A stretch of 29,200 nt of DNA from a virus, in IMG/VR virus record IMGVR_UViG_3300047557_002471, positions 1 through 29,200 of that record. One strand, given 5' to 3'. Both the position numbers and the translations under genes were made by a program. Below the pieces are notes generated by a model, which saw only the letters and a list, made by a program, of their open reading frames with translations, was not told where the DNA came from and did not search any database. Positions 17,414 to 24,482 of this stretch are shown here, piece after piece. Numbering within the stretch: position 1 is the first letter of the stretch; every line of letters begins with the position of its first letter.

Positions 17414-17697
17414 GCGAGACGTATCAGGGGCACATCGATCGTCGCTGTGTGACCGGGCCGCCGAATCGTTTCCCGACGACCGACACTTGGAAGCTTTCGC
17501 ACATCGAGTCGCGCGGGCACATCTGGGGGACAGAAGCGTCAATCGACGCGCCGGAGGCGTTGGCGGCTGGGTCTGTTGTTGCATACGGTTGGCCGTGGCC
17601 GACTGTCCCCATGCCAAAGGTCTTCAATCGGCCAGGGAGCGGAGTCGATAGGGACGGCCGGATGGCAAGAGCAACCGAGCAAAGGACAACGCAATGA
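17410..17697 (+). CDS. hypothetical protein after portal (95 aa)
   Basis: 95 residues starting MSETYQGHIDRRCVTGPPNR, Trp/Pro/Gly-rich with WPWPTVPMPK near the middle. Coupled at both ends by ATGA overlaps. It lies between portal and scaffold, so it may be a minor head factor. Not recognised. Confidence 0.6.
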   Translation: MSETYQGHIDRRCVTGPPNRFPTTDTWKLSHIESRGHIWGTEASIDAPEALAAGSVVAYGWPWPTVPMPKVFNRPGSGVDRDGRMARATEQRTTQ

Positions 17698-17936
17698 GCA
17701 ACGTGAGCACATCGAGTTCGGCCGTCCGTTACGGCGCCGTGACGCCGAGCGACAGCACCGACTTGCAGTTCAAGCGGCTGTACGTCGGCGGCACAGGAAA
17801 CGTCGTCGTCAAGAACGCTGTGGACGGGGCAGCCGTGACGTTTTCTGCTGTGCCCGCAGGCGCGCAGCTCGACGTCTCTGGCGGCAGGGTCATGTTCGCC
17901 ACGACCGCGACCAACATCGTCTGGATGGACTGGTAG
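17694..17936 (+). CDS. small conserved head-region protein (80 aa)
   Basis: 80 residues. The pattern YGAVTPSDSTDLQFKRLYVG, then GTGNVVVKNAVDGAAVTFSA, VPAGAQLDVSGGRV and TATNIV resembles a widespread small phage protein (VTPSDST...LYVGG-x-G-x-V...F-x-x-VPAG) predicted to be all beta. It is found in head or baseplate gene sets. Role unknown, possibly a minor structural protein. AAGGA lies before the ATG. Confidence 0.7.
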   Translation: MSNVSTSSSAVRYGAVTPSDSTDLQFKRLYVGGTGNVVVKNAVDGAAVTFSAVPAGAQLDVSGGRVMFATTATNIVWMDW

Positions 17937-17996
17937 CGCTTCCTATCATGACCGGCGCGCGCTATACATAGCGCAGCCGGAGTTCAGCCGGCAGAA

Positions 17997-18022
17997 AGCC
18001 CGCCGTGATGGCGCGCGAATCC
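17997..18022 (+). repeat. leader element copy 1 (orphan)
   Basis: Begins AGCCCGCCGTGATGGC and ends GCGAATCC. With two preceding A residues it is a 28 bp exact match to copy 3 (17995-18022 against 19115-19142). It is followed by GATGGAG, like a ribosome site, but no start codon or gene follows. It may be left over from a deleted gene or duplicated segment. Confidence 0.85.
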
Positions 18023-18110
18023 GCAGCAGATGGAGGTCTGGCCTCTCGGGGCCAGGCCATTTGTAGCAACCGCCGCTCACATCCCGCTTCACGGCGATAT
18101 GTGACCGGAT

Positions 18111-18136
18111 AGCCTGCCGTGAGGGCAGGCGACTCC
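18111..18136 (+). promoter_or_regulatory. leader element copy 2, before scaffold gene
   Basis: Begins AGCCTGCCGTGAGGGC and ends GCGACTCC, differing from copies 1 and 3 at five of 26 positions. The hairpin GCCTGCC-GTGAG-GGCAGGC is perfect here. One changed pair (C-G in copies 1 and 3, T-A here) is compensatory. GATGGAG follows and the scaffold ATG lies 46 nt after the element start. Confidence 0.75.
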
Positions 18137-18156
18137 CGTAGATGGAGCGCGTAGCA

Positions 18157-19107
18157 ATGAGCAAGGACTTCGACTATTTCCTGGCGCATCCGGAAGAGTT
18201 CGAGAAACTGAGTGCCGAAGACCAGGCCAAGTTGGCAGAGGGCCAGTCAATCGAGGGCGAAATTTCCAGCGTTCCGCCCGACGCTGCGGCAACAGACGAG
18301 ACGAACCCGGAGCAGCAGGAGGCCGATCCTGCGGAAGCCAACAGCGATCCGCCGGAAGCACCAGTCGTGTTGGCCAAGGACGGAAAGCACACGATTCCGT
18401 TCGAGGAGCTTCAGGCTGCCAGAGAGCAAGCCAGGTACTGGCAGGCGAGGGCCGAAGAGGCTCTTGTCCAGCGGCAGGCCGAGACACAACCGGAGCCGCC
18501 CGTCGTCGATCTGAAGGAACTGCGCCGCGAGCTGCGCGAGGCGGTGTTCGCTGACAACGAAACGCTCGAGGCCGAGATTCAGGAGAAGATCGACGCCGAG
18601 TTGACGCGCAGGGCCGAGGAAGCGGCGTACCAGAGGATCGAACGCCGTGATGCCGAGGCCAGGCAGCGCGCCGCAGAACAGGCGGTGGAGGCTGCTGCGG
18701 CCAAGGCCATCGCCGATTATCCGTTCCTGGATCACACCGGCCCGGAGGCGAACCACGAAGCCATCGCTCAAGTGCAGGCGCTGAGCGCCTTCTTGTACGC
18801 GAACAACGGCTCGCCGCCTGACAAGGCGCTCGCGGATGCGGTGGCCAAAGTGGTCAAGATGTACGTCGATCCGCCCCCGCCGAAGCCCGACGCCAGCGGG
18901 GCCGGAGACATCGAGGCCAAGGCCGCAGCGGCGATCGCCAAGGCCAAGTCTCCCGCTCCGAACAGCATGTCGGCGATCCCGTCTGCGTCCGTTCCGCACC
19001 ACGACGAGGCCGAGGCGATGCTCAACATGAGCCCGGCTCAACTGTCCGCGAAGTTCTCCAAGATGACACCGGACCAGATCGAGGCCGCCGTGTCACGAAT
19101 CCTGTAA
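18157..19107 (+). CDS. scaffolding protein, P22-like
   Basis: 316 residues from the ATG at 18157, close in length to P22 gp8 (303). It is acidic and predicted mostly helical, with long charged coiled-coil segments (about 90-195) rich in Glu, Arg and Ala. A Pro/Ala-rich linker follows, then a C-terminal AQLSAKFSKMTPDQIEAAVS helix. The N-terminus is MSKDFDYFLAHPEEFEKLSA. Position between portal and coat, length and composition together support scaffolding, which guides procapsid assembly and then leaves. The ATG at 18142 lies before the GGAG site and is rejected. A repeated hairpin leader precedes the gene. Confidence 0.8.
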   Translation: MSKDFDYFLAHPEEFEKLSAEDQAKLAEGQSIEGEISSVPPDAAATDETNPEQQEADPAEANSDPPEAPVVLAKDGKHTIPFEELQAAREQARYWQARAEEALVQRQAETQPEPPVVDLKELRRELREAVFADNETLEAEIQEKIDAELTRRAEEAAYQRIERRDAEARQRAAEQAVEAAAAKAIADYPFLDHTGPEANHEAIAQVQALSAFLYANNGSPPDKALADAVAKVVKMYVDPPPPKPDASGAGDIEAKAAAAIAKAKSPAPNSMSAIPSASVPHHDEAEAMLNMSPAQLSAKFSKMTPDQIEAAVSRIL

Positions 19108-19116
19108 CCGACGAAA

Positions 19117-19142
19117 AGCCCGCCGTGATGGCGCGCGAATCC
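19117..19142 (+). promoter_or_regulatory. leader element copy 3, before coat gene
   Basis: Identical to copy 1 over its whole 26 bp core. The stem GCCCGCC with GGCGCGC has one C-C mismatch. It is followed by AGCTGGAG as the ribosome site, and the coat ATG lies 45 nt after the element start, almost the same distance as in copy 2. Confidence 0.8.
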
Positions 19143-19161
19143 CTTTAGCTGGAGCTACACA

Positions 19162-20439
19162 ATGACCACCACGACCATCCCATACGGCGCCCCGCAGGCG
19201 ATCAGTCTGCAGTCGGTTGCTCTTTTCTCGGCGTGCATGCAGCGCCTCACCATCCTCAACCGCCTGGCCGGCAAGATGCCGACGCAGGACGAGTCCGAAG
19301 ACAAGTTGCGGTTCCACACGTCGAACGACTACCCGATCGTGCGCTGCAAGGACCTCTCCCGAGGCCCAGGCGATGAGATCAAGTTCGACCTCGTACAACC
19401 GATCGGCGGCAAGCCGATCATGGGCGCCGCATACGCCGAGGGTAACGGCGACCCCATGGACTTCGCGTTCGACTCACTGCGGATCAACCAGTACCGCAAG
19501 CCGATCAGTGGTGGCGACTCGATGTCGCAGCAGCGCACGCCGCATCAGTTGCGCAAGCTGGCCAGGGCTCAGGCGCTCAACTTCATCAAGCGCTACGAGG
19601 ACCAGTCGGCGCTGGTGCATTTGGCCGGCGCACGCGGCTCCGACTACAACATCGAATGGGCGGTGCCGCTGACCTCCGACCCCGATTTCTCCAGCATCAT
19701 GATCAACCCGGTTCGCGCGCCGACGCGCAACAGGCACTACCTGGCGTCGTCCGGTTCGCTCAAGAAGGTCGTTGCGGCCGGTAACGAGATCACGATCGCC
19801 TCGACCGACACCATGACGGCCGATGTGATCGACGCGCTGCGCACCAAACTCGACAGCATGCCGTTGCCGCCGCAGGGGGTCCGGTTCGACGGCGATCAGG
19901 CCGCCGATGATGCCCCGCTGCGCGTGCTGCTGGTGTCGTCCGAGCAGTACACATCGATCGTCCAGAGCACCAACTTCCGCACCTTCCAAGCCAACGCGAT
20001 GGCACGTGCCGGGATGGCCAAGAACCACCCGATCTTCATGGGCGAGGCCGGCCTGTGGAACGGCATCCTCATCGTCAAGATGCCCAAGCCGATCCGTTTC
20101 TTCGCCGGCGACAGCCTGCGCTGGTGCGCCTCGACGTCAAGCCTCACCGAGACGGCAACGGACCTCGTGCCCGCGGCGTTCGGTACGACGTTCGCCATCG
20201 ACCGGGCGATTCTGCTTGGCGGGCAGGCGCTTGGCGAGGCGTTCGGCAAGGCGCGCAAGAGCGGTGACTCGTACTTCTGGTCGGAAAAGGAACTGGACCA
20301 CGACGACAAGCTGGAAGTGCTCGTCGGCGGAATCGGTGGCAAGTCGAAGATTCGCTACCTGATGGATTTCGGGTCCGGGATGGAATACACCGACCACGGA
20401 GTCATCGCCATCGACACTGCCGTCAGGCTGGTTCCGTAA
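19162..20439 (+). CDS. major capsid (coat) protein, N4 gp56/DUF4043-like
   Basis: 425 residues. Motifs NRLAGKMPTQDESEDKLRFH, then SRGPGDEIKFDLVQPIGGKP and INQYRKPISGGDSMSQQRTP, with later GLWNGILIVKMPKPIRF and AILLGGQALGEAFG, resemble the N4-gp56/DUF4043 family of HK97-fold coat proteins often paired with P22-like portals. It should form the icosahedral shell with the preceding scaffold. The hairpin leader and GGAG ribosome site precede the ATG, and a perfect ten-pair hairpin follows the stop, as expected for a highly expressed gene. Confidence 0.88.
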   Translation: MTTTTIPYGAPQAISLQSVALFSACMQRLTILNRLAGKMPTQDESEDKLRFHTSNDYPIVRCKDLSRGPGDEIKFDLVQPIGGKPIMGAAYAEGNGDPMDFAFDSLRINQYRKPISGGDSMSQQRTPHQLRKLARAQALNFIKRYEDQSALVHLAGARGSDYNIEWAVPLTSDPDFSSIMINPVRAPTRNRHYLASSGSLKKVVAAGNEITIASTDTMTADVIDALRTKLDSMPLPPQGVRFDGDQAADDAPLRVLLVSSEQYTSIVQSTNFRTFQANAMARAGMAKNHPIFMGEAGLWNGILIVKMPKPIRFFAGDSLRWCASTSSLTETATDLVPAAFGTTFAIDRAILLGGQALGEAFGKARKSGDSYFWSEKELDHDDKLEVLVGGIGGKSKIRYLMDFGSGMEYTDHGVIAIDTAVRLVP

Positions 20440-23012: not shown

Positions 23013-24482
23013 ATGGCAACATCATTCCCAACGGGGCTCGATGCAATTCAGCGCGTGGGCGCAACCGATTTGCGGAACGCGCCAGGAAAAGAGGGTCACG
23101 TTCTGCACAACAACGTGTGCGACGCGGTTGAGGCGCTGCAGGCCAAGGTCGGTGTGGACGGCAGCGCGGTCTCGACGTCGATCGACAAGCGGCTGGCGGA
23201 TGTGGAAACCGGCGGCGCATCGTCCGCTGCCCATGCCGCTGCCGCAGCGCCGCATTCCGGGCACGCGACGCTCAACGATTTGCAGACTATACGCACGGAA
23301 AACGTCTTCCGCTCGCGGCGGGAGATGTACCGCACCAATCTGATCAGCCCATCAACTGCGCCAGGCGTGGTGCAGACGCTGGGCACCGTGACCGTAAGCG
23401 GGACGCACCCAGCTCCGAGGCGCGTCGATTGCGTGGCGACGTCATCTGGTTCGACAGCAAGAATTCTTGCTGCATGGACGGCGACCGGGCTGGATACAAG
23501 CAAATTCTACGAGTTTTCAGCGACCGTAGTTGCTTTGTCGCTGGCGACACCGGGAGCGTATGCGGACGAATGGATGGCTTCGTCTGGAATCCCAACGTCG
23601 GGTACGCAATCACTCAAATTTTCGACGCTGATGCCTGTTGCCGGGACGCGCTACGGTTTCAGATTCCAGCCGTCCGCATCGTCGTGGACGCTGCGAGTGG
23701 GCCTTGGCTGCAACACTGCCGAGACCGTCGCCGCCGGAGACTTCATTCGCTTCGAGGACTTTCAGCTCTGCGAGGTTGATTCTCTTTCCGGCACCGTTGA
23801 AGATTTTTCATACGCGTTTTACGGCGCCGCCGGAAAGTCGGCATCCGTTACCGATTCAATCGGCAGCTGTATTCTCGTTTGCGGCGACTCCTGGGCCAAC
23901 GACGCCGCGGATTTTGGCGCACTGCTCGCGAGCACTCACGGCAGGGAAGTGATCCTGGTCGCGACAGCGGGCAATAGGCTGGATCAGATATCAACGGACG
24001 TGGCTGCAAAAATCGCGTCCGGCACAACTGGACTTTACCGCCCGAATTTTCACGTCCCGCGTCTCGCTGTCGTGCAGGGCGGCATTAACGATCTTGTCGC
24101 TGATGCGTCGGCGATCACGATGTTTACTCGTTTGAGGACGATCGTTGAAGACCAGTTGATCGCCCGCGATATCGTGCCCTTGGTTGTGTTGCCGGTGCTG
24201 CCTTTGAACTCCACACATTACACCTCGGGGCGCAACAGCGCTTTATTGGATTACGCGCGCCGCGTGTATGCGGCAGGGTATCAAGTCATTGATCCGGCCG
24301 ACTGGTGCGTGCAGGCAAGCGGAAACGCGAATACCGATTTCATGGCGGATGAGTCCGGCGCATGGATCCATCTTTCGACCATCGGATACAAGCTGCTGGC
24401 GAAAAGGATTGATGAAAGAATATCAATCTTGGAAGGATGGGATTTCTTTGGAAGCGCAAGTGCCAGCGGAGACTGGGGGTGA
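23013..24482 (+). CDS. tail protein with SGNH-hydrolase domain
   Basis: 489 residues. Residues 1-65 form a typical phage fibre N-terminus (HNNVCDAVEALQAKVGVDGS), which probably attaches it to the virion. The beta-rich middle (about 110-265) resembles a carbohydrate-binding jelly roll. Residues 285-475 are an SGNH/GDSL hydrolase: block I ILVCGDSWAND with Ser293, block II AGNRLD with Asn321, block III VQGGINDL with Asn359, and block V WIHLSTIGY with His453. The usual Asp three residues before the His is Ala450. Asp446 lies nearby. It may remove acetyl groups from host surface polysaccharide. This gene is visibly more AT-rich than its neighbours, suggesting recent exchange. Confidence 0.82.
   Translation: MATSFPTGLDAIQRVGATDLRNAPGKEGHVLHNNVCDAVEALQAKVGVDGSAVSTSIDKRLADVETGGASSAAHAAAAAPHSGHATLNDLQTIRTENVFRSRREMYRTNLISPSTAPGVVQTLGTVTVSGTHPAPRRVDCVATSSGSTARILAAWTATGLDTSKFYEFSATVVALSLATPGAYADEWMASSGIPTSGTQSLKFSTLMPVAGTRYGFRFQPSASSWTLRVGLGCNTAETVAAGDFIRFEDFQLCEVDSLSGTVEDFSYAFYGAAGKSASVTDSIGSCILVCGDSWANDAADFGALLASTHGREVILVATAGNRLDQISTDVAAKIASGTTGLYRPNFHVPRLAVVQGGINDLVADASAITMFTRLRTIVEDQLIARDIVPLVVLPVLPLNSTHYTSGRNSALLDYARRVYAAGYQVIDPADWCVQASGNANTDFMADESGAWIHLSTIGYKLLAKRIDERISILEGWDFFGSASASGDWG

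Follow-up and report, generated by a model that had tools for sequence, protein, structure and literature searches.

A short RNA hairpin capped by a GUGA loop, hereafter element A, recurs in the leaders of genes for major virion proteins in tailed phages that are otherwise unrelated and, as judged from comparative sequence analysis, is an RNA structure conserved across phages. We consider it probable that tailed phages of Proteobacteria share element A as a conserved RNA that acts in cis, at the step of translation initiation, on the genes for their most abundant virion proteins. The element was identified in the window, that is, the whole stretch of 29,200 nucleotides analyzed here (positions 1 to 29,200 of IMG/VR virus record IMGVR_UViG_3300047557_002471), a fragment derived from a tailed phage whose head module is of the P22/F116 type and consists of genes for the terminase, portal (PF16510), scaffold, coat, and adaptor proteins (Table 1). 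In its general layout, element A comprises a 4–5 bp stem with a GUGA or GUGAU cap, a 5' unpaired base that is usually A, and an outer stem of 2–3 bp, followed by UCC and, after about 7 nt, by GGAG.

The original prediction, made from the letters of the window alone, was that a hairpin leader occurs in three copies, each followed by a ribosome-binding site. The repetition is real: with up to three mismatches allowed, the consensus GCCYGCCGTGAKGGCRSGCGAMTCC matched the whole window at these three copies only, all in the sense orientation, compared to 0 matches expected by chance (100 shuffles), and GGAG follows each copy. The predicted leader distances of 46 nt for the scaffold gene (18111 to the ATG at 18157) and 45 nt for the coat gene (19117 to the ATG at 19162) were likewise correct, as was the replacement of a C-G by a T-A pair in the stem between copies. 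The stem of copies 1 and 3 is GC(C)CGCC-GTGAT-GGCG(C)GC, in which a C.C mismatch separates the 4 bp inner stem from 2 outer pairs, and that of copy 2, GCCTGCC-GTGAG-GGCAGGC, has 7 uninterrupted pairs; the mismatch, at a position where copy 2 has a C-G pair, had escaped the prediction. The GGAG motif is located 9 nt 5' of the scaffold ATG in copy 2 and 7 nt 5' of the coat ATG in copy 3. Downstream of copy 1, no start codon lies within usable distance and no ORF follows; instead, the copy is adjoined by a 9 bp hairpin that lacks a T-run and thus is not a standard intrinsic terminator. No terminator-like or promoter site was found in this region (positions 17600–19300 examined for terminator-like sites).

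Table 1. Features of the window and the loci carrying related or alternative hairpins (L followed by a number, individual loci)
Feature	Position or loci	Strand	Details
Element A copy 1	17998..18035	+	hairpin 17998-18016, loop GTGAT 18005-18009, TCC 18020-18022, GGAG 18032-18035; R2 40.0 bits
Element A copy 2	18112..18147	+	hairpin 18112-18130, loop GTGAG 18119-18123, TCC 18134-18136, GGAG 18144-18147; R2 40.7 bits
Element A copy 3	19118..19154	+	hairpin 19118-19136, loop GTGAT 19125-19129, TCC 19140-19142, GGAG 19151-19154; R2 43.2 bits
Scaffold protein gene	18157..19107	+	phrog_479 match
Major coat protein gene	19162..20439	+	PF13252, phrog_334
9 bp hairpin (GGTCTGGCC / GGCCAGGCC)	18035..18058	+	adjoins 3' end of copy 1; predicted fold
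Element B	18089..18104	+	TCACG-[GCGATA]-TGTGA; separate hairpin of P22/F116-like scaffold genes
Element B, all loci	window 18089-18104; L002, L003, L004, L005, L008, L010-L012, L014-L016, L027-L031, L033, L136		
UUCG terminator-like hairpins with T-run, or CCTTGGGCAAGG-type hairpins	L186, L193, L206, L210, L227, L254, L256 and L196, L199, L202, L235		HK97-type capsid leaders without element A

Among 58 distinct copies of element A, 93.7% of the cells were paired, double-sided changes were present in all 7 pairs, and the covariation score was 0.590, compared to 0.189 with shuffled partners and at most 0.117 with slid partners. Because this alignment had been fitted to the model, an independent pair count was performed on HK97-capsid loci that were picked by protein alone and anchored by the loop and closing pair only; in these loci, 88% of pairs 2–5 form, compared to 72% with shuffled partners and a maximum of 82% in 5000 shuffles. 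In loci oriented by their proteins, the matches were always in the sense strand (57 of 57 for the HK97-capsid loci, and 17 of 17 otherwise). The outcome originally named as refuting the prediction, a covariance search without relatives or with uncompensated stem changes, was the opposite of what was observed: relatives were found, and the stems in the coat leaders of coat-gene relatives show compensated changes (CGCC/GGCG, CGCT/AGCG, and CGTC/GACG). G-U pairs are tolerated. Strong covariation, occurrence in the sense orientation only, and a fixed register to the start codon bear out the prediction that the hairpin is a conserved RNA acting in cis.

Most copies have GTGA or GTGAT as the loop; GGGA(T), GCGA, and GGAT are minority variants, and GAGA occurs in some others. 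A control pattern with a GAGA loop, applied in a full scan of viral contigs, matched 57 stretches, about 15 of them genuine-looking by eye, compared to at least 120 for GTGA, so that the loop is best described as GNGA, GTGA being the preferred form. Among the 46 parsed copies with an unpaired 5' base, this base is A in 33 and C in 11, including those of the window, and the spacing between UCC and GGAG is 7 nt in 95 and 6–8 nt in 120 of 130 copies.

Relatives of the coat gene (46–68% protein identity) share the same architecture 5' of the coat gene, and several have an additional copy in the scaffold 5' region. On long contigs, R1, a covariance model built on 12 copies, detected scaffold- and coat-leader copies only, for example, two in a 54.5 kb contig and three in a 40 kb contig. 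When viral contigs were scanned with a pattern defined by the RNA only (CGCTGTGAAGCG, TCC, GGAG), at least 120 stretches matched; an ORF begins just after GGAG in 67 of 83 instances, and the largest group of downstream proteins was the HK97-type capsid, followed by tail-tube and other structural groups. By the reverse route, with loci picked solely by similarity to one HK97-type capsid protein, an R2 match ending 1–20 nt 5' of the capsid start was found in 41 of 73 loci, the others including a few without a rescan and many in which another hairpin, a terminator, or neither is present; many HK97-capsid loci contain a second copy about 3 kb downstream, 5' of a tail-tube gene. Leaders of HK97-type capsid genes without element A were observed to have other hairpins just 5' of the start (Table 1).

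Comparison of 80 downstream proteins with Pfam identified capsids (PF05065, 18; PF13252, 14; P22 coat, 4; GP7, 1), tail-tube proteins (PF06199, 10; PF16460, 5; PF16461, 5; PF18906, 2; at most 22 in total given possible overlap), and a few portals and proteases, to which PHROGs added 4 members of the scaffold family. The proposal that the element is a device for the scaffold and coat pair therefore stands with respect to the leader role and the RNA structure but not to pair specificity, given that HK97-type capsid genes, tail-tube genes, and a few others are preceded by it as well; copy 1, with no gene directly after it, likewise speaks against a role limited to these two genes.

The carriers, with 1–4 copies per phage, include podo- and siphophages, bacterial prophages, and the isolate phage PAJU2 of Pseudomonas aeruginosa, in which the single copy is 5' of the major tail protein gene. 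(In PAJU2, positions 23882–24064 also produced C4 antisense RNA, c4-a1b1 target, and isrK matches, beside an anti-repressor gene.) Many relatives with homologous capsids lack element A. A search of isolate phages with the leader alone by blastn produced chance matches only or none, and a reduced-sensitivity scan of 399 Pseudomonadota genomes gave one match at E<=2e-5, 5' of an HK97-type-capsid-like gene. A host chromosomal version of element A was considered and rejected: the R2 matches of 28–33 bits are false positives that correspond to the linker between the two aptamers of the glycine riboswitch, and the phage copies of element A produced no match to this aptamer. The tandem riboswitch linker of Comamonadaceae (L275–L279, L281), which imitates element A at these scores, is a trap for covariance searches.

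The distance from the loop to the start codon is 36 nt (10–90% range 34–38, n = 117) across unrelated genes, and an ORF start is present in 132 of 161 distinct copies, mostly 6–9 nt after GGAG. It is chiefly because of this narrow spacing that we place the action of element A at translation initiation. In some scaffold-leader copies, including copy 1 of the window, UCC and GGAG are retained although no ORF follows, a feature that a model based purely on start-codon register leaves unexplained. Pairing between UCC and GGA is predicted to be weak (mean probability 0.16), and its inward extension occurs less often than expected by chance, so that a classical Shine-Dalgarno switch is unsupported, and a strong second hairpin formed by these boxes is not favored on the same grounds; some leaders are palindromic across UCC/GGA (TCCAGTACTGGA, TCCTTTAAAGGA). 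Two GUGA hairpins in tandem were observed in the scaffold leaders of L006, L008, and L011, the first two of which have a further hairpin separating UUCCC from GGAGAUUGACC. The fixed spacing, the retention of GGAG in ORF-less copies, and these inserted hairpins suggest some contact between the UCC and GGA boxes.

The scaffold leader of the window contains another hairpin, element B, which precedes element A copy 2 and the scaffold start, in this order. Element B has a (G/C)CGAYA hexaloop on a 5–6 bp stem and is located directly 5' of the scaffold start in P22/F116-like phages, with 91.2% of cells paired and a covariation score of 0.604, compared to 0.199 with shuffled partners and at most 0.118 for slides. 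It is also present in F116, 8P, USP25, Y7, Y11, and Escherichia coli phi296, all of which lack element A; no element B-like hairpin was seen by inspection of the P22 gene 8 leader. Being scaffold-specific, element B is a more plausible means than element A of controlling the scaffold gene itself and can be regarded as a candidate autoregulation site. Further upstream, a CCCCCTGTAGGG-like sequence recurs 5' of the scaffold leader in L005, L011, L012, and L014, possibly representing a promoter or operator of the structural operon.

In the mechanism that we favor, the hairpin would reside upstream of the Shine-Dalgarno sequence, in the region where the 30S subunit receives the mRNA; the conserved loop and unpaired base could be recognized by a trans-acting factor or by the 30S subunit itself, and this recognition would set ribosome loading on GGAG. 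Boosting the output of major proteins over that of the neighboring minor genes of the operon is slightly favored over repression for timing or feedback. No protein family was common to 11 carriers by BLAST, to which very diverged families are invisible, and the best families were found in only 6 of the 11, leading us to reject a shared phage-encoded factor. CsrA-like proteins are encoded by F116 (L029), BcepIL02 (L369), Skulduggery (L371), and, with weak similarity, POI1126 (L370), which have the same coat family as the window and lack element A. The combination of no common protein family with CsrA being absent from carrier records and present in relatives without the element favors a host factor or direct action of the ribosome, and a host-encoded factor seems more likely than a phage-encoded one. 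That a single factor, most likely a ribosomal or other RNA-binding protein of the host, recognizes the GNGA hairpin and thereby links the genes for capsid, scaffold, and tail-tube proteins in unrelated phages into one translational regulon, with the leader as a portable module that moves between phages to any gene needing bulk output, is a tentative proposal, possible but short of probable.

Several other readings of element A were weighed against action at translation initiation. The hairpin could be an mRNA processing or stabilizing element, with a nuclease cutting upstream and the hairpin guarding the 5' end thus generated on mRNAs of abundant proteins. The position of element A 5' of such genes within long operons is compatible with this role, as are the other stable hairpins or terminators that often occur just 5' of the same capsid gene in relatives without the element and the promoter-like TTGCAT-17-TATTGT just upstream in one siphophage, which would place the hairpin near the mRNA 5' end; nevertheless, such an element would need neither a specific GUGA loop nor a UCC box nor a register of 34–38 nt to the start codon, and we consider this explanation unlikely. 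Under autoregulation, the leader hairpin would be bound by the scaffold or coat protein encoded behind it, with translation repressed as it is by the coat proteins of RNA phages. This reading draws on the architecture of the MS2- and PP7-type operators, which combine a hairpin, a 5' unpaired A, and a sequence-specific loop at the translation start, and on the reported post-transcriptional control by the P22 scaffold of its own synthesis. The likeness, a hairpin with an unpaired A and a specific loop beside the Shine-Dalgarno sequence, is in architecture only: the loop of element A is GNGA, the phages are tailed DNA phages, and the same module is found 5' of unrelated capsid folds and tail-tube families, which rules out any one structural protein as the common ligand. 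With element B available for the scaffold, autoregulation through element A is improbable.

Equally improbable is the binding of a host or phage CsrA/Rsm protein to the loop and GGAG. Element A resembles CsrA/Rsm leader sites in having a hairpin loop site and a second site at the Shine-Dalgarno sequence, the minority loops GGGAU and GGAU contain GGA, and of the related phages with CsrA-like proteins named above, two have GGAU capsid-leader hairpins; however, the dominant GUGA loop lacks the GGA core expected in the loop of such sites, and a CsrA gene was absent from the 17 carrier records examined, which speaks against phage-encoded, though not host, CsrA as the binder. The GGAU-containing hairpins in the capsid leaders of BcepIL02 and Skulduggery (GCGCAGGATGTGCG, GCGCTGGATGTGCG) suggest that capsid translation in these two phages may be under CsrA control. 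The lowest probability is assigned to a transcriptional or DNA-level site (an operator, an antitermination site, or part of a terminator) with a coincidental inverted repeat. The lambda-type boxB antitermination hairpin of nut sites is, like element A, a small stem with a GNRA-like tetra- or pentaloop in phage RNA, and another hairpin comes right after copy 1; unlike boxB, element A is found at a fixed distance to start codons and in multiple copies inside the late operon, and the start-codon register, sense-only occurrence, unpaired base, tolerance of G-U pairs, and conserved loop are as expected of an RNA, with the lack of promoter or terminator-like sites in the window region arguing in the same direction.

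The original prediction did not recognize the hairpin as a named element, in agreement with the absence of matches to any of the 4227 families of Rfam 15 for the window and distant copies, with thresholds of E = 1 for the window region and E = 5 for one strong copy; the scaffold leader of L014 gave chance matches only. The Rfam motifs Mu-gpT-DE and GP20 are conserved RNA structures near phage head genes, a location shared by element A, which matches neither. No published description of element A was found in the open-access literature, to which the search was confined, so that an earlier description elsewhere is possible. The closest system described there is the start-associated sequence (SAS) of actinobacterial phages, a similar idea with a different sequence, structure, and gene set. 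SAS and its extended form (ESAS) have been reported from mycobacteriophages of Cluster K (PMC3203893) and from Microbacterium phages of Cluster EF (PMC7302621). The 13 bp SAS consensus, GGGATAGGAGCCC, is located at ribosome sites and scattered along the genomes of related phages (PMC3203893); roughly half of the occurrences have an inverted repeat immediately 5' of them, and a role in translation initiation has been proposed, the binding factor not being known (PMC3203893, PMC7302621). Element A is likewise a short repeated sequence by the ribosome site of several phage genes but, unlike SAS, is a covarying GUGA-loop hairpin that is present in few copies per phage, at major structural genes, in unrelated phages. 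The 13 bp consensus is absent from the element A leaders compared, which read UCCC-N6/7-GGAG, and in place of the upstream 17 bp imperfect inverted repeat with a variable spacer of SAS/ESAS, element A has a 4–5 bp stem plus 2–3 outer pairs and a loop fixed at 4–5 nt.

Tailed phages produce hundreds of copies of the capsid and tail-tube proteins and few of the portal and adaptors from the same operon, and to our knowledge, how this ratio is set is poorly known. A covarying leader shared by just the major virion genes of unrelated phages offers a handle on the control of protein ratios, as a candidate for regulation at the RNA level with, possibly, a common host factor. Element A may further serve as a marker for major virion genes in unannotated phages and as a portable leader.
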